Part shown: piece after piece, positions 3,130-20,483 of the stretch
Position numbering within the stretch: the stretch's first letter is position 1
How the letters are laid out: each line of letters begins with the position of its first letter
Source of the DNA: Oscillospiraceae bacterium
GTDB lineage: Bacteria; Bacillota; Clostridia; Oscillospirales; Ruminococcaceae
Direction of reading: 5' to 3'
DNA length: 40,582 nucleotides
NCBI GenBank assembly: GCA_022787085.1
Contig: JALFVE010000011.1
Location: 1-40,582, forward strand
Notes under the pieces: model-generated
Told to the model about the DNA's origin: nothing
Database searches by the model: none
The model's input: only the letters and a program-made list of their open reading frames with translations
Translations under genes and position numbers: made by a program

Positions 3130-5286
3130 ATGGCAGGAAACAGCAGAAATTTATTCAAGCTGGTGTCGATGCTCCTTGTGGCTGCCTCACTTTACAGTGC
3201 ATTCGGCTCGTTAAGAGGCGGTGAGGTCAGATTCTGGATATCTCTTTGTGTTACTTCACTTATCGGCATTGCTTACCTGATTCTGTTTCTGGATAACGAA
3301 AAGGAGCTTCTGAAGGCAAAAAAGGACGCTGAAGTTCCTCCTATCCCCGATGATAACTCCAAGGTTAACAGATTCTTTCTGAATAACTGCCCCTTTCCTG
3401 CTATCATCATCGACGAGGAGGGCAGGCTGCTTAAAAAAACAAGCGGCGCTTCGGAGATATTTCCCGAGTTCAGAGAGGGCGAAAAGCTTTCGGACTGCCC
3501 TGCCGCCGAACGGCTTAATTATCAGCCCGACGAGGACCAGCTGCTCAGAGATTTTGAATGGAGCCATTATTTGGTTTCCAAGCTGACCGCTCCCAACACT
3601 GAGGAAGCAGGCAAATCCTTTACTCTTTTGTGCTTTCGTGATATGAGAGAGCTGGATTCCCTGAAGGACCAGGCGGAGGACAGCAGAAATTATGTTGCAA
3701 TGCTCATTATCGACTGCTATGACGAGCTTTTCTCCAAGGTCTCCGATTCCGAAAAGGCTCAGATCACTATGAAGATCGACAAGCTCTTTGAAGGCTTTAT
3801 CGAAAGGCACAACGGACTTCTGAAAAAAATCGACGAGGATCACTATTTCGCTATTATCAGTGAAAAGGAGATCAAGGCTCTGGAGGAGGAGAAGTTTTCT
3901 TCCGTTCTGGACGAGGCTCACAAGATCACTGTTTCGGGACGCTTCCCCGTTACTGTTTCCATGGGCATCGGCAGAGGCGGCTCAAGTCTCAGGGAAAGCG
4001 AGGAGCTTGCCCGTGACGCCCTTAAAATGACTCAGGGCAGAGGCGGCGATCAGATTGCTGTCAAATACAGCAAAAATGATTCCAGATACGATTTCTACGG
4101 CGGTCAGTCCGAAAGAATGGAAAATAATTCCAAGGTCAAGACCCGTATTTTCAGCGACAATCTTATGAATCTGATCGTAGGCTCCGACAGGGTCCTGTTA
4201 ATGGGTCATGCCTTCAGCGATATGGACGCTGTGGGCGCTGCTGCCGGTTTATGCGGCGCTGTGAGAGCTATGGGCTTTGAGGCAAATGTCTGCGTCAACG
4301 AAAAAACTACCCTTGCCCGTCCTGTTATCGGCCGTCTCAGAGACAGGCTCCCCGATGAAAAGGAGCTTTTCATCTCCGAGGATGACGCTCTCAAACGAAT
4401 GACTGTGAATACTCTCCTCGTTATCGTGGACACCAATAACAGAGAAAAGCTCGACAGCAAGGCTGTTTATGCCAATGCGAACAATGTTGTCTATATCGAT
4501 CACCACAGGCAGGTCGCTACCTGCATTGACAATGCGGTCATTTCTCTGCTTGACCCCGACGCTTCATCTGCCAGCGAGATGGTTACGGAGGTCATCAGCT
4601 ATTTCTCTGCCGCAAAGGCGCTTTCCTGCTATTTTGCGGACGCTCTCCTTGCGGGAATTACCCTCGATACCAAGGATTTTGTTATGAAAACAAGGACGAG
4701 GACCTTCGAGGCGGCAGCTTATCTTAAATCTCTGGGCGCCGATCCCGTTCCCGTTAAAAAGCTGTTTGCCAATCCCCTTGAGCAGGATATACTCCGCTCA
4801 AGACTTATCGCAAACGCCGAGATCTACAGAAACTGCGCCATCACCTGCCTTGACAAGGAGCTTCCCAACATAAGGATCGCTGCTTCTCAGGCTGCCGATC
4901 AGCTTCTGAATACCGAGGGCGTTAAGGCAAGCTTCGCCATTTATTCCGGCGGCGGTGCGGCTAATATTTCCGCCCGCTCCTACGGCACTCAGAACGGCGG
5001 TACCAATGTTCAGCTGCTTATGGAAAAGCTGGGCGCCGCCCCCGGCGACGGCGGCGGTCATCTTACGGCGGCGGGTCTTTCCATGAAGGGCGTTTCAACC
5101 GAGGAGCTGTACAGCAGGCTTAAAAAGGTCCTTGACGAGTATTATGCCGATGTTCAGTCCATTGACAGCCGTCCCAAGGAGGAGCTGCACGATGAGCCTG
5201 AGCTGACCTCTGAGGCTGCGCCGTCCGATAATGCCGCTCCCTCCGATGATATCAGCCATCACAGCTATTCAAATAACAAGGAATAA
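3130..5286 (+). CDS. gdpP: Cyclic-di-AMP phosphodiesterase GdpP (DHH/DHHA1)
   Basis: A membrane-bound enzyme that hydrolyses c-di-AMP to pApA, controlling potassium and osmotic balance and wall stress in Firmicutes. It has 718 aa. Two transmembrane helices (about 8-26 and 34-55) are followed by a PAS-like region (about 80-170). A degenerate GGDEF domain (about 180-310) has the signature position replaced by DEDHY. Then come DHH (SDMDAVG with D364 and D366; DHH at 457-459) and DHHA1, whose glycine-rich GDGGGHLTAAG lies near residue 640. The tail of about 50 residues is acidic and Ser/Pro-rich. The ATG follows an AAAGG at 3114. It lies 27 nt after rnj and 5 nt before the next gene, so it is surely cotranscribed. 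The order gdpP-rplI-dnaB is a familiar Firmicutes arrangement, here interrupted by a SUFU gene. Confidence 0.95.
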   Translation: MAGNSRNLFKLVSMLLVAASLYSAFGSLRGGEVRFWISLCVTSLIGIAYLILFLDNEKELLKAKKDAEVPPIPDDNSKVNRFFLNNCPFPAIIIDEEGRLLKKTSGASEIFPEFREGEKLSDCPAAERLNYQPDEDQLLRDFEWSHYLVSKLTAPNTEEAGKSFTLLCFRDMRELDSLKDQAEDSRNYVAMLIIDCYDELFSKVSDSEKAQITMKIDKLFEGFIERHNGLLKKIDEDHYFAIISEKEIKALEEEKFSSVLDEAHKITVSGRFPVTVSMGIGRGGSSLRESEELARDALKMTQGRGGDQIAVKYSKNDSRYDFYGGQSERMENNSKVKTRIFSDNLMNLIVGSDRVLLMGHAFSDMDAVGAAAGLCGAVRAMGFEANVCVNEKTTLARPVIGRLRDRLPDEKELFISEDDALKRMTVNTLLVIVDTNNREKLDSKAVYANANNVVYIDHHRQVATCIDNAVISLLDPDASSASEMVTEVISYFSAAKALSCYFADALLAGITLDTKDFVMKTRTRTFEAAAYLKSLGADPVPVKKLFANPLEQDILRSRLIANAEIYRNCAITCLDKELPNIRIAASQAADQLLNTEGVKASFAIYSGGGAANISARSYGTQNGGTNVQLLMEKLGAAPGDGGGHLTAAGLSMKGVSTEELYSRLKKVLDEYYADVQSIDSRPKEELHDEPELTSEAAPSDNAAPSDDISHHSYSNNKE

Positions 5287-12718: not shown

Positions 12719-12961
12719 TCACAGGGATGCGTGGAATGTTCTTGAGATAACGTCGTCCTGCTGCTCCTTGGTGAGCTTGATGAAGTTTACTGCATATCCG
12801 GATACACGGATAGTGAGCTGAGGATAGTTCTCAGGGTGTTTCTGTGCATCGAGAAGGGTATCTCTTGTAAACACGTTAACGTTAAGGTGGTGGCCGCCCT
12901 TGGTTGCATAACCGTCAAGAAGACCTACGAGATTGTTTATCTGCTGTGCATTTGCTGCCAT
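12719..12961 (-). CDS. Stand-alone glycyl-radical domain of pyruvate formate-lyase (GrcA-like)
   Basis: An 80-aa protein equivalent to the C-terminal glycyl-radical domain of PFL and to the spare part GrcA/YfiD. AAAGGAG upstream of ATG 12961 sets the start; a TTG six codons earlier lies inside that site and is rejected. Motifs are [20 protein letters not shown], then [13 protein letters not shown] with radical Gly55, then [14 protein letters not shown] to the end. It aligns in full with the last ~80 residues of E. coli PflB, which the neighbouring large gene lacks. It lies 163 nt after that gene and 12 nt before pflA. GrcA in E. coli repairs oxygen-cleaved PFL. Here no intact PFL is encoded in the window, so this protein is probably the obligatory radical subunit (inference). 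Confidence 0.93.
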
Positions 12962-12989
12962 AGTAAAAACTCCTTTCAAATCAGGTTAA

Positions 12990-12995
12990 ATTATA
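12990..12995 (-). promoter_or_regulatory. Possible -10 element for the glycyl-radical gene
   Basis: TATAAT on the minus strand, 29 nt before the start codon of the small gene. No good -35 is seen at 17 nt, so it is either an activated promoter or chance in AT-rich DNA. Confidence 0.3.
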
Positions 12996-13051
12996 CTCGG
13001 TTGGTGTACTTTCTATATGCTAAATATACCACAAAATTATGTCTTTTTTGT

Positions 13052-13086
13052 GCCGACAGTCTTAAAATATTGTAAAGACTGTCGGC
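13052..13086 (-). other. Strong intercistronic hairpin between the two PFL genes
   Basis: A perfect 12-bp stem, GCCGACAGTCTT (13052-13063) with its complement at 13075-13086. It has no T run on either side, so it is unlikely to be a full terminator. It sits between the stop of the large subunit and the start of the small one, where it could mark an RNA processing or stabilising site that sets the subunit ratio (inference). Confidence 0.6.
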
Positions 13087-13124
13087 TCAAACTTTTCGTT
13101 TCAGAATGACTTGATGGTCAGAAT

Positions 13125-15215
13125 TTATCTGTCATTGTCGCTGGTGTTGGGAATATTTGCGCAGGAGGGGCAGAGTGCGTCGATATCGAGATCGCCAACA
13201 AATACGCCGCCGTCCTTACCGAGAGCATCGGGAATGATGGAGAAGGTATTGGAGATACCGTCCTGAGCGTTGGAGAACTGAAGCTTGGATACAGAAGAGA
13301 GTGATGCGGATGCACCATGTGTATCTCTGCCGTGCATGGGGTTAGCACCGGGTGCGAGAGGCACGCCAAGCTTACGTCCGTCGGGTGTGGAGCCTGTCTT
13401 CTTACCATATACAACATTGGAGGTGATGGTAAGGATAGATGTTGTGGGAAGACCGTTTCTGTATGTGTGCTGCTGGCGGATCTTGTTCATGAAGCGGTTG
13501 AGGATATCCTCTGCGATCTCATCAACACGGTCATCATCGTTGCCGTACTTGGGGAAGTCGCCCTCGATCTCGTAATCAACAACAATACCCTGCTCGTTTC
13601 TGATGGTCTTTACCTTAGCATACTTGATTGCGGAGAGGGAGTCTGCTACTACGGAGATTCCTGCGATACCTGTTGCAAAGTATCTCTTAACCTCTCTGTC
13701 GTGGAGAGCCATCTGGAGGCTTTCATAGCAGTACTTGTCGTGCATATAGTGAATGATGTTGAGGGTATTTACATAAAGCTCAGCGAGCCATGTCATCATA
13801 TCATCATACTTTTCCATAACCTCATCGAAATCAAGATACTCGGAAGTGATGGGTCTGAACTTTGTTGCTACCTGAACGCCGCTGATCTCGTCAACACCGC
13901 CGTTGATAGCATAAAGGAGGCACTTAGCGAGGTTTGCTCTTGCGCCGAAGAACTGCATTTCCTTACCAACTCTCATGGAGGATACGCAGCAAGCGATAGC
14001 ATAATCATCGCCGTGAGTTACTCTCATAAGGTCATCGTTCTCATACTGGATGGAGGATGTATTGATAGAGATCTTTGCGCAGTATGCCTTCCATGCAGCG
14101 GGGAGTCTTGTAGACCAGAGAACTGTCATGTTAGGCTCGGGAGATGTGCCCAGATTCTCGAGAGTGTGGAGATAACGGAAGCTGGTCTTTGTAACCATAT
14201 GTCTGCCGTCGATGCCCATACCGCCGAGGGACTCTGTTACCCACTGGGGGTCGCCGGAGAAGAGTGCGTTATACTCGGGTGTTCTTGCAAATCTTACAAG
14301 ACGGAGCTTCATGATGAAGTGGTCAATAAGCTCCTGTGCCTCAACCTCAGTGATTCTGCCAAGCTTGAAGTCTCTCTCGAAGTAGATATCGAGGAAGGTG
14401 GATGTACGTCCGAGGGACATTGCTGCACCGTTCTGGTCCTTTACAGCGCCCAGATAGCCGAAGTATACAGCCTGAACTGCTTCCTTAGCGGTTACTGCGG
14501 GCTTGGAGATATCGCAGCCGTAGATCTCAGCCATCTTCTTGAGGTTCTCAAGAGCACGGATCTGCTCAGCGATCTCCTCTCTTGCACGGATCTTTTCCTC
14601 TGTCATGGGGCAGGTATAGAATGCCTTCTGCTCCTTCTTGTCCTCGATAAGTCTGTCAACGCCGTACAGAGCAACACGTCTGTAGTCGCCGATGATTCTT
14701 CCTCTGCCGTATGCATCGGGAAGACCTGTGAGGATATGAGCTGTTCTTGCTGCTCTCATTTCGGGAGTATATACATCAAAAACGCCTGCGTTATGTGTCT
14801 TGCGGTATTCGGTAAAGATGTGCTTGATCTCGGGATCAATGGTATAGCCGTTGTCGGAGCAAGCCTTTTCAGCCATTCTGAGGCCGCCGTAGGGCATAAG
14901 TGCTCTCTTGAAGGGCTTGTCTGTCTGGAGACCTACGATCTGCTCCAGATCCTTTTCAATATAGCCTGCGCCGTGGGATACCAGTGAGGATACTACCTTT
15001 GTATCCATATCGAGAACGCCGCCTGCTTCTCTTTCCTTCTTAGCAAGCTCCATTACGTCGTCCCAGAGCTTCTTGGTAGCGTCTGTGGGATCTGCAAGGA
15101 AGCTTTCGTCGCCGTCATAGGGAGTGTAGTTCTTCTGGATAAAGTCACGGACATTGATCTCCTTTGTCCACTGACCGCCCTTGAAGCCTTCCCATTCCTG
15201 TGGCATCTGATTCAT
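13125..15215 (-). CDS. pflB: Pyruvate formate-lyase large part lacking the glycyl-radical domain
   Basis: PFL cleaves pyruvate with CoA to acetyl-CoA and formate. This protein is 696 aa against about 760 for E. coli PflB. The start has GGAGG just upstream ([16 protein letters not shown]). Active-site cysteines C409-C410 are in [21 protein letters not shown]. Family segments [26 protein letters not shown] and [15 protein letters not shown] are intact. Homology continues to [11 protein letters not shown] and then stops: a short tail with a CPSC motif replaces the next domain. The missing glycyl-radical domain is the neighbouring 80-aa gene. The genes have separate ribosome binding sites and 163 nt between them, so this is a gene split, not a frameshift. 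A long antisense frame over this gene is a codon-bias shadow. Confidence 0.95.
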
Positions 15216-15635: not shown

Positions 15636-18600
15636 TTAATGGACAAGCTTGTTTCCGCACTCGGCACAGAACTTCGCTGTCTCACTTGTGATCTTCGCTC
15701 CGCACTGATCGCAGAACTTGATCTTGGGCTTAGGTGCCTCGGCAGGCTTGCTCTGCTCCACCGGCTTAACGGGTGCAGCAGCGGGCTGTGCAGACTTTGC
15801 TGCCTCAACAGGCTTAACGGGTGCAGCAGCGGGCTGTGCAAGCTTTGCTGCCTCAACAGGCTTAGCAGGAGCAGCTGCGGGCTGTGCAGGCTTTGCTGCC
15901 TCAACAGGCTTAACAGGAGCTGCAGGCTTGCTCTGCTCCGCAGGCTGAACGGGCTTTGCAGGTTCAGCAGGCTTGCTCTGCACTACATCTATAGGCTTGA
16001 TGGGCTTGACCTCGGGAATGGAGGAAACAACCACTTCAATAGGCTTGATGGGCTTGATAGGCTCGGGCTTCTTTTCGGGAACAGCCTCGGGTTTCTTTTC
16101 CGCAGCAGCCTCGGGCTTCTTTTCGGGAACGGGCTTGGGTGCGGCAGCCTCCTTCTCGGCATTTTCTGCCTTTTTCCTTGCCTCCTCGATCTCCTTGCGC
16201 TCCTCCTCAAGCTCCAGAAGCTTTGCTTCCTCGGCAGCCTTGATCTCCTCGGCTTCCTTGAGCTTTGCCTCTGCTCTCGACTTCTGAATTGCGGCAAGAA
16301 CTCCGTTCAATACCTTAGCAGTAGGCTCAAATGCCTTCTTTTCAAAGTTGGAGTGAAGATCTGTGGACTTTCCGTTCTTCTCGATAACCTTGAAGGTCGC
16401 TCCCAGAATTCCGCTCTTGCCCTCAAATCTCTCGATCTGATCGACAGGGATATGGAGAAGTCCCGATGTTTTGCCCATTCCGTAAAGGTATTCGGTGGTG
16501 AGAAGGTAGGATTCCTCTGGATGTCCCATGGTAAATTCGTGAACAAATACGGGAAGCTCGAACTGCTCGGTTCTTGCATAGGTATTCTGGATCTTCACAA
16601 ACACGCTCTCGAAGGATTTTGAGATTCCGGGGATATAGAACTGGGATTCCTTGACGCTGTTTTCATACATGAGCTTCTTCATAAGCTCAACAAAGCCGTC
16701 TCTCTCCACTGTTCTGAGATTTGTGATATGAAGCTCCACCTGATTGATAAAGCGCTTCTTGGTGTCGGCGTCGATATCCATCTCATTGATATCCTTGATA
16801 AGCTCGAAGCAGCGATGCTCGCCCGAATTTCCGAGATTTTTGCACTTTTCGGAAAGGATATTGGCATCTGCCTCGCGGATCTTGGAATTAACCTTGCCGA
16901 TATACCTCTGGAGCATATCGTCGGGAGCATGATTTTCGTTTTTGTTTATCTTCTCGAGAAGGACGATAAGCTCTGCACGGCTCATGGCACCTATCTTCTC
17001 GGTGAGCTTTGTGTAATACTGAACATGGAGATTTGTAACTGCCTCGTCGATCCTCTTGATGAAGGGGAAGGTGATCTCGGGAATGAAGTCTCCCTCGGAG
17101 ATCTGCTCCTTGATATCCGCAAGCTTTTTCAGATCATGGCTTGCCACATCTCCGCAGAGCTTTTCAAGCTCCTGCCTCTGGAGAAGCTCTCTGCGCTCTC
17201 TGAGCTTTGTAACAGACGATTCATAAAGCTTTGGATCGAGTGTGGGCTTGCGCTTGTCAAGATCATCTGCAAATTTGTCGATCTCCTCGGCGGTGAGCTT
17301 CTCGATGGATGCCATCTGCTTGTCAAATTCAGCCTTGTCAAGCTGCTTGAGACGGCTTTCGATCTGCTCCGCATATGCCTTGCCCGCATCCTTATACTCG
17401 GGTGTATCATTAAGGGCAAGCTTCATGCTCAGAAGCTTATCCTTGGGTGCGCTCTGGATATTCTTGCAAAGCTCGGCAAGCTCCTGCTTGATAAGAACTT
17501 CGGTGCGCTCGTCGATCTGCTTGATGTATTTTGCGGAAAGCTCCTTGTCGAAATCTCCGCCCGAAAGAGCTTCTCTGAGCTTGGAAAGCTCCTTTCTGGG
17601 TGTTGTGGCGATATTCTTGCAGAGATTTTCCATCTCCGCCTTCATAAGCGTGATCTCGCAGCCTCTGATCTTTTCGAGATAAGGCGCGGTATTTTCCTTC
17701 TTGAAGCCAAGTGCGGAAATATCTGCGGAAAGCTTCTCCAGCTCGGGCTTTTTGAGCTTAGCGATATCCTTGCACATTGCGTCAAGCTTGTCAGTCTCGA
17801 TCTTATCGAATCGCTTGTCGATCTCGTCAAAATACTTCTTGACATATTCGGGATCGAATTTCTCGTTTTTGAGCTTCTCGGAAAGGGATGCAAGCTCGGG
17901 CTTGAACATATTTCCGATATTCTTGCAAAGCTCGTCGGCTTCCTTGTTGTAAAGGCTCTTTCTGCGTGCCTTGATAGTATCGAAATAGCCGGAGGTAAGC
18001 TCCTCGGGATATTTCTTGTCTCCGAGAGCCTTTTCCAGAGCATCGAGCTTTGCGTGGTCCATTGTGGGGATATCCTTGCACATATCGGAAAGCTCTGCCT
18101 TGAGGAGAGCCTTTGCACGCTCCTCGGTCATGGGGAGATACTTCTTTGAGATATCCTCGGGATATTTACCGCTCTTCAGTTCCTCGATGATCTTGTCAAG
18201 GTCGGACTTATTCATCTGAGGAATGGTATCGCACTTCTTGATAAATTCCGCATTTCTGAGCTCAGTCTCACGGGAATCAAGCTGAGACTTGTATTTGTCG
18301 GTAAGTGCTGCGGGATATTTGCCCGAAGCAATGACCGCTCTCAGGCTGTCGAGCTTTGCCTTGTCGGCAGCGGCAATGCCTGCAAATGCATCGGAAACCT
18401 CCTTATTAAGAAGCTCCTGCTTTCTTGCGTCGATATCCTTCTTATAAGGTGCCTTGAGTCCCTCTCTGCACTTAACTTCGGAGAGCTTTGCAAGCATATC
18501 ATCGAGAGCCTTGTTATCGGCTTCGGAAATGCCCTTGCAGAGTGCGGAAAGCTCAGTTCTTGCAAAGCCGTCCCTTGCCTCGGAGAGCTTAGCGGTGAAA

Positions 18601-20363
18601 TGACGGGTGAACATTTTGTCATATTTTCCCGATGCAAGGGTCTTTTCCAGCTCGTCTGCCTTTGCCTTGTCGGGGATAGCCTTGAACATTTCCGAAAGAT
18701 CTTTCAGCTGTGCTGTGAGGGCAGCATCCTTTACCATTGCGATATAGGGAGCTGATACAACCTCGTCATAGCCGCCTTCGGTTATCTTCTTCATAACTGC
18801 GTCAAGCTCCTCGGGCTTTTTCAGGGTAAGCCCCGTGCAGAGAAGCTTCAGCTGATTTTCCTCGCAGTTTAGGAGGGCAAGCTTTATCTTGAGAAGATAC
18901 TTGCCTGTGTTTTTCTTATCAAGGGGCATATCAAAAATGCGCTTGCGGAGCTGCTTCAGCTCGTCCTCATTAAGAGCTGAAAGATCTGCGCATTCCTCTG
19001 CAAGAACAGCCTCGTTCTTAACTGCCTTTTCCATCTCCCCGACCGTATCGAAAATGGTGCCGTTATAGGTTCTGGCGGCAATCTCGTATTCCTTGCAGTA
19101 TGTATCCAGCTCCTCGAAAACGGGAGCGTTTTTAAGCTTGTATTTTGCTGCGGCTGCCTTTATATCCTCGGAAATAAGGGCAGCTCTTGCTCCGCCGCAA
19201 TTGAGCTTTCCATCAGCGTCACGGCAGTCTGCGGGGATATAGGAGCTTTCAAGATATTTTCCAAGCTCTGCGGGAGTGAGGGCAGAGCTGTTCCAGTATT
19301 CAGCAATATTCTCAACTGCCTCTGCGTCTGCGGGAGATGCGGCTCTTGCCATATTGAAAACTGCGGGATATGCGGGACGGACTCCCAGCATAGCGGCAAT
19401 ATCCTTTTTAAGCTCCTCGGGAGCTGCGGAGGAAAGCTCCGCTGCCTTTAAGCTCTCAGCAAATTTGTCCTTGTCGGGAGCAGAATATTTAAAGCCATAG
19501 CTGTTTTTCTCGGAAACAAGCTTTCTGAAATTATCCTTTAATACAACGGTATCTTCGGAGGCATATGCCCTCTCGTCGATGGAAACGCCGCACTTTGCAG
19601 CAAGCTTTGAAAAGAGCCTGCCGGTAAATCCCTTAATATCAAAATCTATCTCGGCTGCCTTGAAGGCTGCGGCATGAGGCTCCATATCCTTTATAAGCCT
19701 GTCGCACAGCTCAAGGCCCTTGTCAAGCTCCTTGCAGCGGGATTCGTTCTTATCGCAGGAGATCTTTGTGCCGAATATCTCAAACTCGGTCTCGCCGATT
19801 ATCTCGGGGGATACAAACTCGGAAGCAAGCTCGTCCAGATAGCCGTTTATCTTTTCCGAAACGTCCTTTTCCGAAAGCACGGCGGGGTCCTCAAGGGTGC
19901 ATTTTTTATAAAGGAAATGATTCGTTATCTTCTTAAAGGGCTGAACAACGTTGGTGAGGGGTGTTACGGGGGCATATGGCTTGCCCTCCTTTTTCATATG
20001 CTCCTCGCTGATGATAAGGGTGTCGTGCTTTCCGTCGATCATCCAGTCCTCTGCCTCAAAGGCTGCATCAAAAAGAAGACTTGCAATGATGACCTTGCCG
20101 TTTTCGGCGGCGATCTTTCTTGCATCGGCTATTTTAAAAGGCTCAAAGCTCTCGCCGTCCTCGGACATGAGAAGCATATCCGACATTCGGCAGATATCGG
20201 TGCTGTTGCTCTTTGCCTCCTCCTTTGAGCAGGGAATGTAGATAACTCCGTCAAGCAGAGGGTGGCAGAAAAGCCGTCCCACATTGAAATATTTGTCGGT
20301 AAACGCCGCTGTAAATTCGCTGCAGGAAGCCTTAAAACGACCGTAATCCCTAAAAATTTCCAC
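15636..20363 (-). CDS. Giant helical-repeat, PH-like, zinc-ribbon protein of unknown function
   Basis: The protein has 1575 aa if started at GTG 20363, which has GGGAGGAA 8 nt upstream; an ATG at 20420 has no such site. No signal peptide or membrane helix. An N-terminal region of about 450 residues is of unknown fold (starts MEIFRDYGRFKASC). Residues 458-1224 are fifteen tandem units of ~51 aa. The typical unit begins C-K-x-I, continues L..L...L, and ends Y...I..R...L...EL. Residues ~1236-1335 look like a bacterial PH-type domain (YLLTTEYLYG...IPVDQIERFEG). A charged coiled coil spans about 1340-1400, then a Pro/Ala/Lys linker with 16-residue repeats. The end is a zinc ribbon, CDQC...CAEC, at 1551-1575. 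It has its own promoter and terminator, so it is a single-gene unit. The layout suggests a cytoplasmic scaffold or adaptor (inference). I do not recognise the family. Confidence 0.85.
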   Translation of the reverse strand: MEIFRDYGRFKASCSEFTAAFTDKYFNVGRLFCHPLLDGVIYIPCSKEEAKSNSTDICRMSDMLLMSEDGESFEPFKIADARKIAAENGKVIIASLLFDAAFEAEDWMIDGKHDTLIISEEHMKKEGKPYAPVTPLTNVVQPFKKITNHFLYKKCTLEDPAVLSEKDVSEKINGYLDELASEFVSPEIIGETEFEIFGTKISCDKNESRCKELDKGLELCDRLIKDMEPHAAAFKAAEIDFDIKGFTGRLFSKLAAKCGVSIDERAYASEDTVVLKDNFRKLVSEKNSYGFKYSAPDKDKFAESLKAAELSSAAPEELKKDIAAMLGVRPAYPAVFNMARAASPADAEAVENIAEYWNSSALTPAELGKYLESSYIPADCRDADGKLNCGGARAALISEDIKAAAAKYKLKNAPVFEELDTYCKEYEIAARTYNGTIFDTVGEMEKAVKNEAVLAEECADLSALNEDELKQLRKRIFDMPLDKKNTGKYLLKIKLALLNCEENQLKLLCTGLTLKKPEELDAVMKKITEGGYDEVVSAPYIAMVKDAALTAQLKDLSEMFKAIPDKAKADELEKTLASGKYDKMFTRHFTAKLSEARDGFARTELSALCKGISEADNKALDDMLAKLSEVKCREGLKAPYKKDIDARKQELLNKEVSDAFAGIAAADKAKLDSLRAVIASGKYPAALTDKYKSQLDSRETELRNAEFIKKCDTIPQMNKSDLDKIIEELKSGKYPEDISKKYLPMTEERAKALLKAELSDMCKDIPTMDHAKLDALEKALGDKKYPEELTSGYFDTIKARRKSLYNKEADELCKNIGNMFKPELASLSEKLKNEKFDPEYVKKYFDEIDKRFDKIETDKLDAMCKDIAKLKKPELEKLSADISALGFKKENTAPYLEKIRGCEITLMKAEMENLCKNIATTPRKELSKLREALSGGDFDKELSAKYIKQIDERTEVLIKQELAELCKNIQSAPKDKLLSMKLALNDTPEYKDAGKAYAEQIESRLKQLDKAEFDKQMASIEKLTAEEIDKFADDLDKRKPTLDPKLYESSVTKLRERRELLQRQELEKLCGDVASHDLKKLADIKEQISEGDFIPEITFPFIKRIDEAVTNLHVQYYTKLTEKIGAMSRAELIVLLEKINKNENHAPDDMLQRYIGKVNSKIREADANILSEKCKNLGNSGEHRCFELIKDINEMDIDADTKKRFINQVELHITNLRTVERDGFVELMKKLMYENSVKESQFYIPGISKSFESVFVKIQNTYARTEQFELPVFVHEFTMGHPEESYLLTTEYLYGMGKTSGLLHIPVDQIERFEGKSGILGATFKVIEKNGKSTDLHSNFEKKAFEPTAKVLNGVLAAIQKSRAEAKLKEAEEIKAAEEAKLLELEEERKEIEEARKKAENAEKEAAAPKPVPEKKPEAAAEKKPEAVPEKKPEPIKPIKPIEVVVSSIPEVKPIKPIDVVQSKPAEPAKPVQPAEQSKPAAPVKPVEAAKPAQPAAAPAKPVEAAKLAQPAAAPVKPVEAAKSAQPAAAPVKPVEQSKPAEAPKPKIKFCDQCGAKITSETAKFCAECGNKLVH
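15798..15945 (-). repeat. 48-bp tandem repeats in the Pro/Ala/Lys linker
   Basis: Three nearly identical copies with a 48-bp period (phase points 15801, 15849, 15897), encoding the 16-residue unit AAPAKPVEAAKxAQPA. Flanking sequence carries degenerate copies. The DNA-level identity points to recent expansion by slippage or recombination. Confidence 0.85.
16692..18992 (-). repeat. Fifteen ~51-residue protein repeats (coding)
   Basis: Tandem units inside the giant protein, residues 458-1224, about 153 bp each. Most start with Cys-Lys/Gly/Asp-x-Ile and keep a Tyr about 34 residues in and an Arg about 4 residues later. They are diverged at DNA level, unlike the linker repeats, so they are an old array. 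Confidence 0.85.
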
Positions 20364-20483
20364 AGTTGATTCCTCCCGTTTGCTGACTCTGCGCCGTTCC
20401 GCAACAGCAGCAGAGGTCATTTTTTCTTTGTTTGCGAGCCCGTCTCCCTATAAGAAAGGCTTCTATCGCATGATATTATTAAC

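Follow-up and report, generated by a model that had tools for sequence, protein, structure and literature searches.

A probable two-chain pyruvate formate-lyase with a separate glycyl-radical subunit in an Oscillospiraceae bacterium

Pyruvate formate-lyase (PFL) is a radical enzyme, and oxygen cuts its chain at the radical. The window, i.e. the whole stretch of 40,582 nucleotides analysed here, encodes on its minus strand a PFL body, then, after a gap of 163 nt, an 80-aa glycyl-radical protein and, after a further 12 nt, a PFL activase (Table 1). The locus raises the question of whether a single gene has been broken or the enzyme is built of two chains and, in the latter case, what the body carries in place of its missing end. 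An earlier note on this DNA had read the locus as a PFL encoded by two genes, a body and a stand-alone radical subunit; this reading is confirmed here and is correct in its details.

Table 1. Coordinates of the features of the PFL locus in the window
Feature	Position	Strand	Basis
PFL body (formate C-acetyltransferase without glycyl-radical domain), 696 aa	13125..15215	-	TIGR01255 match
Catalytic cysteine codons C409-C410	13986..13991	-	sequence; invariant in 32 split bodies
Body C-terminal tail after ALGK: acidic VFxGDLDxD stretch, then Cys motif	13128..13214	-	conservation across split bodies
Tail cysteine motif CPSCANIPN	13146..13172	-	degenerate-motif search of 61 genomes
12-bp perfect stem-loop between body and small-subunit genes, without T-run after it	13052..13086	-	
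Stand-alone glycyl-radical subunit GrcA3, 80 aa	12719..12961	-	NCBIfam NF038360
Radical glycine codon G55 in VSGYAV	12797..12799	-	sequence; invariant in alignments
PflA, PFL-activating radical-SAM enzyme, 255 aa	11939..12706	-	TIGR02493 288 bits, cut-off 231.75

Two genes in place of one

The body exceeds the cut-off of TIGR01255 (1114.3 bits versus 994.2), but it does so over profile positions 1-667 of 744 only, and its alignment to E. coli PFL covers residues 7-680 of 759. The glycyl-radical domain is not in the body chain and is found in the next gene, whose product aligns to E. coli PFL residues 683-758 and whose ATG is preceded by AAAGGAG. Hence the body does keep its catalytic cysteine pair and end before the radical domain, and the missing end, with Gly55, does form a following gene with an AAAGGAG of its own, as the earlier note had it. 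Neither cysteine varies among 32 aligned split bodies (that of the window included), the mean column identity of which is 78%; likewise, G55 is invariant in 26 aligned rows, again including the window's, and the radical glycine loop in 120 of 120 stand-alone rows, duplicates counted in.

With PflB (TIGR01255; E. coli structure 1h16) the window's enzyme has in common the body over that profile range, the cysteine pair and the neighbouring activase; unlike in PflB, a chain of its own provides the last ~80 residues, the radical glycine among them, and the body has a new conserved tail. The 80-aa protein exceeds the cut-off of the GrcA3 model (NF038360, 164.4 bits versus 158) at stand-alone length and stays under that of GrcA/YfiD (TIGR04365, 96.2 of 170 bits, profile positions 65-126 only). 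The stand-alone radical protein already has a curated NCBIfam family, GrcA3, so that the split is less unknown than the earlier note implied; the GrcA3 model, the name of which speaks of a cofactor, covers the small protein alone, and not the body without radical domain, its tail or the third protein described below. GrcA/YfiD also has its radical domain on a chain of its own, as have the versions encoded by T4-type phages. E. coli GrcA is described in PMC8683613 as having an extra disordered front half, the window's domain instead keeping the native helix. Moreover, E. coli GrcA serves an intact PFL after damage, whereas the radical domain of the window is the only one.

The solved chains closest to the body are PDB 38la and 38lb ('Formate acetyltransferase', 687 and 739 residues). 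Since both match the body and are absent from the 34 sequences matched by a GrcA3 query, they look like PFL bodies without the radical domain, whether by a natural split or as constructs truncated from a fused PFL, which suggests existing work on split PFL by others.

Most relatives of this locus are draft MAGs, with MAG in the title of 73 among the best 80 named loci (drawn from at least 583 stretches encoding a relative), a circumstance in which an assembly or sequencing artefact could divide one gene. Such an artefact is nonetheless extremely improbable. Body and small subunit are arranged in this way in 109 split loci, the gap ranging from -38 to 982 nt and two of the gene pairs overlapping, and sequencing error is thereby excluded. 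In addition, 60 of 103 loci have a third gene, as a rule inside the gap, and the split occurs in a complete chromosome (L072, Claveliimonas bilis) as well as in Eisenbergiella tayi (L073), Lacrimispora amygdalina (L088) and L062, the records of which bear no MAG label, the first three species being among the 7 named loci of the best 80 without MAG in the title. Body and grcA3 lie in the same frame in 31 of the 109 loci, about the third expected by chance, and at least one stop stands between them in all 31; the same-frame pairs reported in the genome searches within and outside the genus (frames up to 878 aa) were consequently rejected as fusions. The exclusion of a frameshift in the earlier note is thus upheld by the recurrence of the arrangement, the varied gaps, the stops between in-frame pairs and the records not labelled MAG.

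A strong stem-loop is found between the body and small-subunit genes in many loci. In regions of 45-320 nt, the best stem was compared with those of 60 shuffles and beat all of them in 12 of 19 regions between body and grcA3, in 7 of 20 between body and third protein, and in 7 of 18 between third protein and grcA3. Within the genus its sequence differs between subclades, part of the genus keeping the stem with an altered sequence, and the stem-loop is absent at gaps of 21 to 39 nt. In the window the stem-loop is followed by ACAAAAAAG, with no T-run, and for this reason it may tune the ratio of the two chains via mRNA processing or stability rather than stop transcription. Promoter-like sites ahead of grcA3 are no more numerous than in shuffles.

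Single loci show other peculiarities. In L089 and L092 the order is body, activase, grcA3, and the cysteine motif discussed below is absent. L084 has two grcA3 genes (1885-2139 and 5017-5271), 3.1 kb apart and with identical protein sequence, and in one split pair (G261; L105, 206-208) the PFL body contains one in-frame TAA. Beside the PFL genes of the window, at 15636-20420 on the minus strand, lies the gene of a 1594-aa protein with proline/alanine-rich repeats and a C-terminal CxxC...CxxC, for which no match was found in NCBIfam.

Probable dependence on the separate subunit and history of the split

The assembly of the window's genome (2.53 Mb, 56 contigs, 95.36% complete) has one match to the PFL-like Pfam model, namely this body, and three to the Gly_radical model, namely the small subunit, the body end and a protein on contig 18. 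The latter was considered as a second PFL and rejected, being the anaerobic ribonucleotide reductase NrdD (TIGR02487, 439 bits, cut-off 326). With the two Pfam models and TIGR01255, no second full-length PFL was found in this assembly, in which an unassembled fused copy remains conceivable.

The same holds more widely. The stand-alone GrcA3 is present in 16 of the 19 other genomes of the genus, and TIGR01255 has a match in 18 of 20; no fused PFL was seen among these 20, of which the two without any PFL match are 77% and 81% complete, and one (G010) has a front piece of the body only, which would fit a fused and a split PFL alike. Of the 24 split genomes outside the genus, 22 gave no sign of a fused PFL, with body pieces only in G211, G258 and G422; in G311 and G415, which belong to one genus, fused and split PFL are both present. 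The claim that the separate domain would be obligatory therefore stands, given a body without radical domain, no other PFL in the genome at the completeness stated, and no fused PFL in the genus or in most split genomes beyond it.

Could the small protein nonetheless serve as a spare, like GrcA of E. coli, beside a body that is a truncated, dead PFL? The NCBIfam name 'autonomous glycyl radical cofactor' points that way, as does the action of E. coli GrcA on cleaved PFL reported in PMC8683613; yet the genome is without an intact PFL to repair, and none was seen in the genus either, the catalytic residues of the body are kept amid high conservation, and the protein misses the GrcA cut-off by a wide stretch of bits. 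This account was already disfavoured and is highly improbable. On the contrary, the window very probably encodes an obligate two-chain pyruvate formate-lyase, the complex and activity of which I infer from the sequences. As for its metabolic weight, PFOR was the other route looked for, and no full match to its model TIGR02176 was found in the window's genome (22 bits over 91 of 1167 positions), so that the split PFL may be a main or central route from pyruvate to acetyl-CoA.

In a class-wide sample of 391 genomes searched with NF038360 (E<=1e-42), 25 match GrcA3; two of these are fused (G386 and G382), which leaves 23 with a stand-alone protein, the window's genome included. GrcA3 is present in 2 of 398 genomes of a phylum-wide draw, one being the window's own. 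By filing, the best 80 named loci comprise 47 Lachnospiraceae, 15 Oscillospiraceae, 2 Erysipelotrichaceae, 1 Clostridiaceae and 1 Eubacteriaceae, and 14 without family. To the point raised in the earlier note, whether related genomes have the same split, the answer is affirmative, as it is the rule in the genus and recurs in some of the class genomes and in the loci examined.

The history of the split was approached with a tree of 52 PFL cores, the tail being left out, thinned from 99 full-length rows to <89% identity within one state. Two changes between fused and split are needed on this tree. The split rows form one group, inside which the fused G386 (L134) and G382 (L135) are nested, and a tree with the split rows forced together without these two is rejected (p-AU 0.0003). 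One origin of the split and one apparent re-fusion would be the simplest history on the tree; the high GrcA3 scores of G386 and G382 (151.5 and 149.7 bits, versus 105-135 among the 20 fused matches that exceed 100 bits) fit the re-fusion.

Stand-alone GrcA3-like genes were also met on IMG/VR viral contigs of up to 332,864 bases (L157, L160 and L162-L167), where no PFL body was found within ~3 kb of them. On the viral contig L158, a tail-less body ending SLGKDED adjoins a GrcA3-like gene, and on L159 and L168 (4209-4211) the viral PFL body is interrupted by one in-frame TGA, i.e. a broken gene or an altered code. Of 50,697 phage records, 1539 have a GrcA3 protein match, most of them under the names of enterobacterial phages.

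The body tail and a third small protein

The following counts refer to 103 non-redundant loci (the 80 closest to the window's subunit, the class hits and the genus), which are not a random sample. After ALGK, the body tail reads V/I, F, any residue, G, D, L/I and an acidic part; of 101 tails, 95 have the F, 97 the G and 91 the D. The earlier note had called this tail new and non-homologous, which is true only in part: E. coli PFL does not resemble it, but split bodies have its first part in conserved form, and the cysteine motif turns up again on other small proteins.

This motif, two cysteines followed by a proline (CPSCANIPN in the window), is located in cis on the body tail in 30 of the 103 loci, in trans in 60, in both places in none and in neither in 13, so that not every split PFL needs it; the genus members L014, L127, L128 and L118 are without it. 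The mutual exclusion of cis and trans has a Fisher p of 4e-16, kinship uncorrected, and is not significant when corrected for kinship, there being 4 independent pairs in which the other trait changed, on average, the opposite way in 2.4, never the same way, and not at all in 1.6.

A degenerate DNA form of the window's motif was searched in 61 related genomes together with a control pattern. It occurs 12 times, 8 on PFL body tails and 4 in a small gene ahead of nth, the control pattern being found 0 times. The order of motif gene and nth is the same in the window's genome, G009, G012 and G018. A case in point is the second motif gene of the window's genome (contig 46, 10254-10472, minus strand; L201, 7252-7473), which encodes 73 aa directly ahead of nth, the latter identified as endonuclease III by a TIGR01083 match over cut-off. 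The 73-aa protein has a helix-like LIKMLDSYMESGG front; within the window's genome the third-protein profile gave no report of it at E<=1, nor had it an NCBIfam match, and its kinship with the third protein consequently rests on the motif and the front.

A strict exclusion of cis and trans at the level of the genome was also considered and rejected, because in the window's genome, G009 and G012 the body motif is accompanied by a second motif gene at another place; the exclusion is thus one per PFL locus, not per genome. L014, the same locus as that of G018, has a PFL core 99% identical to the window's and a body without the motif, and G018 keeps the separate gene.

The third protein is encoded between body and grcA3 on the same strand, with the exception of L094, where it stands behind grcA3. 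Its median length from the first ATG is 68 aa (53-90; n=56), and a Shine-Dalgarno-like tetramer lies within 18 nt in 42 of the 56 genes. D15, G23, C47, A53, C54 and P57 (L056 numbering) are invariant in 32 aligned third proteins, and the median pN/pS of 0.27 (21 of 120 drawn pairs passing a saturation filter) suggests, by a rough count, purifying selection. No Pfam or NCBIfam family was over cut-off for five examples, which gave weak front-half matches to GrcA3 (best E 2.9e-5), and no PDB chain was matched by the one example searched. In the class-wide sample, the third-protein profile matches 9 of 391 genomes (E<=1e-6), all on the same contig as grcA3 and within a few hundred bases of it.

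Small cysteine-bearing partners of a glycyl radical enzyme are known from benzylsuccinate synthase and 4-hydroxyphenylacetate decarboxylase, where they carry Fe-S clusters. A further small-protein family, whose front half is similar and which bears a GRCDVGSPWA-like motif, was noticed in L175-L178 and L181, L176 having only part of the motif; these weak profile matches were set aside after their neighbour genes had been inspected by eye.

Among the papers listed in searches of the open full-text literature (no preprints and few subscription papers) none is on split PFL or GrcA3, an absence that weighs little. The conserved tail, the third protein and the alternation of cis and trans are undescribed in the sources searched (open literature, Pfam, NCBIfam, PDB).

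A proposed working of the enzyme

When oxygen has cut the PFL of E. coli, YfiD (GrcA) binds to it and receives the radical there, as reported in PMC8683613. According to the same paper, with PFL cut to residue 695 the binding of YfiD was undetected under the conditions used and activation was down 32-fold, which its authors read as the loss of a recognition element, and residues 696-733 of cleaved PFL are required for measurable binding and full activation (PMC8683613). The split body ends even earlier than this cut, so that some element must take over the role in recognition.

The following working is proposed. The 696-aa body would fold the barrel bearing the catalytic cysteine pair; GrcA3 would supply the last helix, the tenth barrel strand and the radical-glycine loop by docking into the open barrel; and PflA, encoded by the third gene of the cluster, would install the radical on GrcA3. 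Once cut by oxygen, GrcA3 would be released and replaced, the tail or the third protein guiding it to, or holding, the site. The body may keep its acidic tail with the cysteine motif because its open C-terminal end is without the stretch that E. coli needs to recognise the spare part. That the tail or the third protein is the recognition or holding element for an exchangeable radical subunit is advanced as a plausible suggestion, somewhat short of an even bet. The gain, to which I would give about even chances, would be that oxygen destroys only an 80-aa chain, one that can be replaced much as GrcA makes good cleaved PFL in E. coli.

The third protein could also act as a plug. By profile comparison, the helix and tenth strand of GrcA3 have a counterpart in its front half (probability 92.4, E 5.3e-7, 31 columns), the protein is without the glycine loop, and in L056 the second invariant cysteine, C54, stands 28 residues past the strand asparagine, the same spacing as that of G55 in GrcA3. 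Along this line, the third protein or the cysteine tail of the body would fill the empty barrel and shield the catalytic cysteines, or quench the radical by its thiols, until a fresh GrcA3 arrives; the confinement of the third-protein profile to split-PFL genomes in the class sample (9 of 9, all among the 23 with a stand-alone GrcA3) agrees with such a role. Yet the spacing differs among third proteins, the cis tails are without a helix-strand mimic, and the 13 loci noted above do without both tail motif and third protein, so that a plug appears unlikely, guidance or holding of the site being the preferred role.

Should the plug nonetheless exist, the split PFL would be a three-part machine, in which a body and a radical subunit that can be exchanged are joined by an imitation of the latter, devoid of the glycine but with a conserved cysteine pair, that holds and guards the empty site between radical subunits, a picture that is doubtful for now. 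It is similarly speculative that the imitation would be either a separate protein or, as in the window, one shrunk to a body tail. If true, the enzyme would come with a fuse and a fuse-holder of its own for the glycyl radical.

The third protein and the alternation of the cysteine motif between cis and trans are concrete and testable. A split PFL would offer a ready system for studying the installation of a radical on an isolated subunit, and would be a template for more oxygen-tolerant radical enzymes. To gut anaerobes, a widespread natural PFL with its radical piece as a separate chain would give a cheap route of repair.
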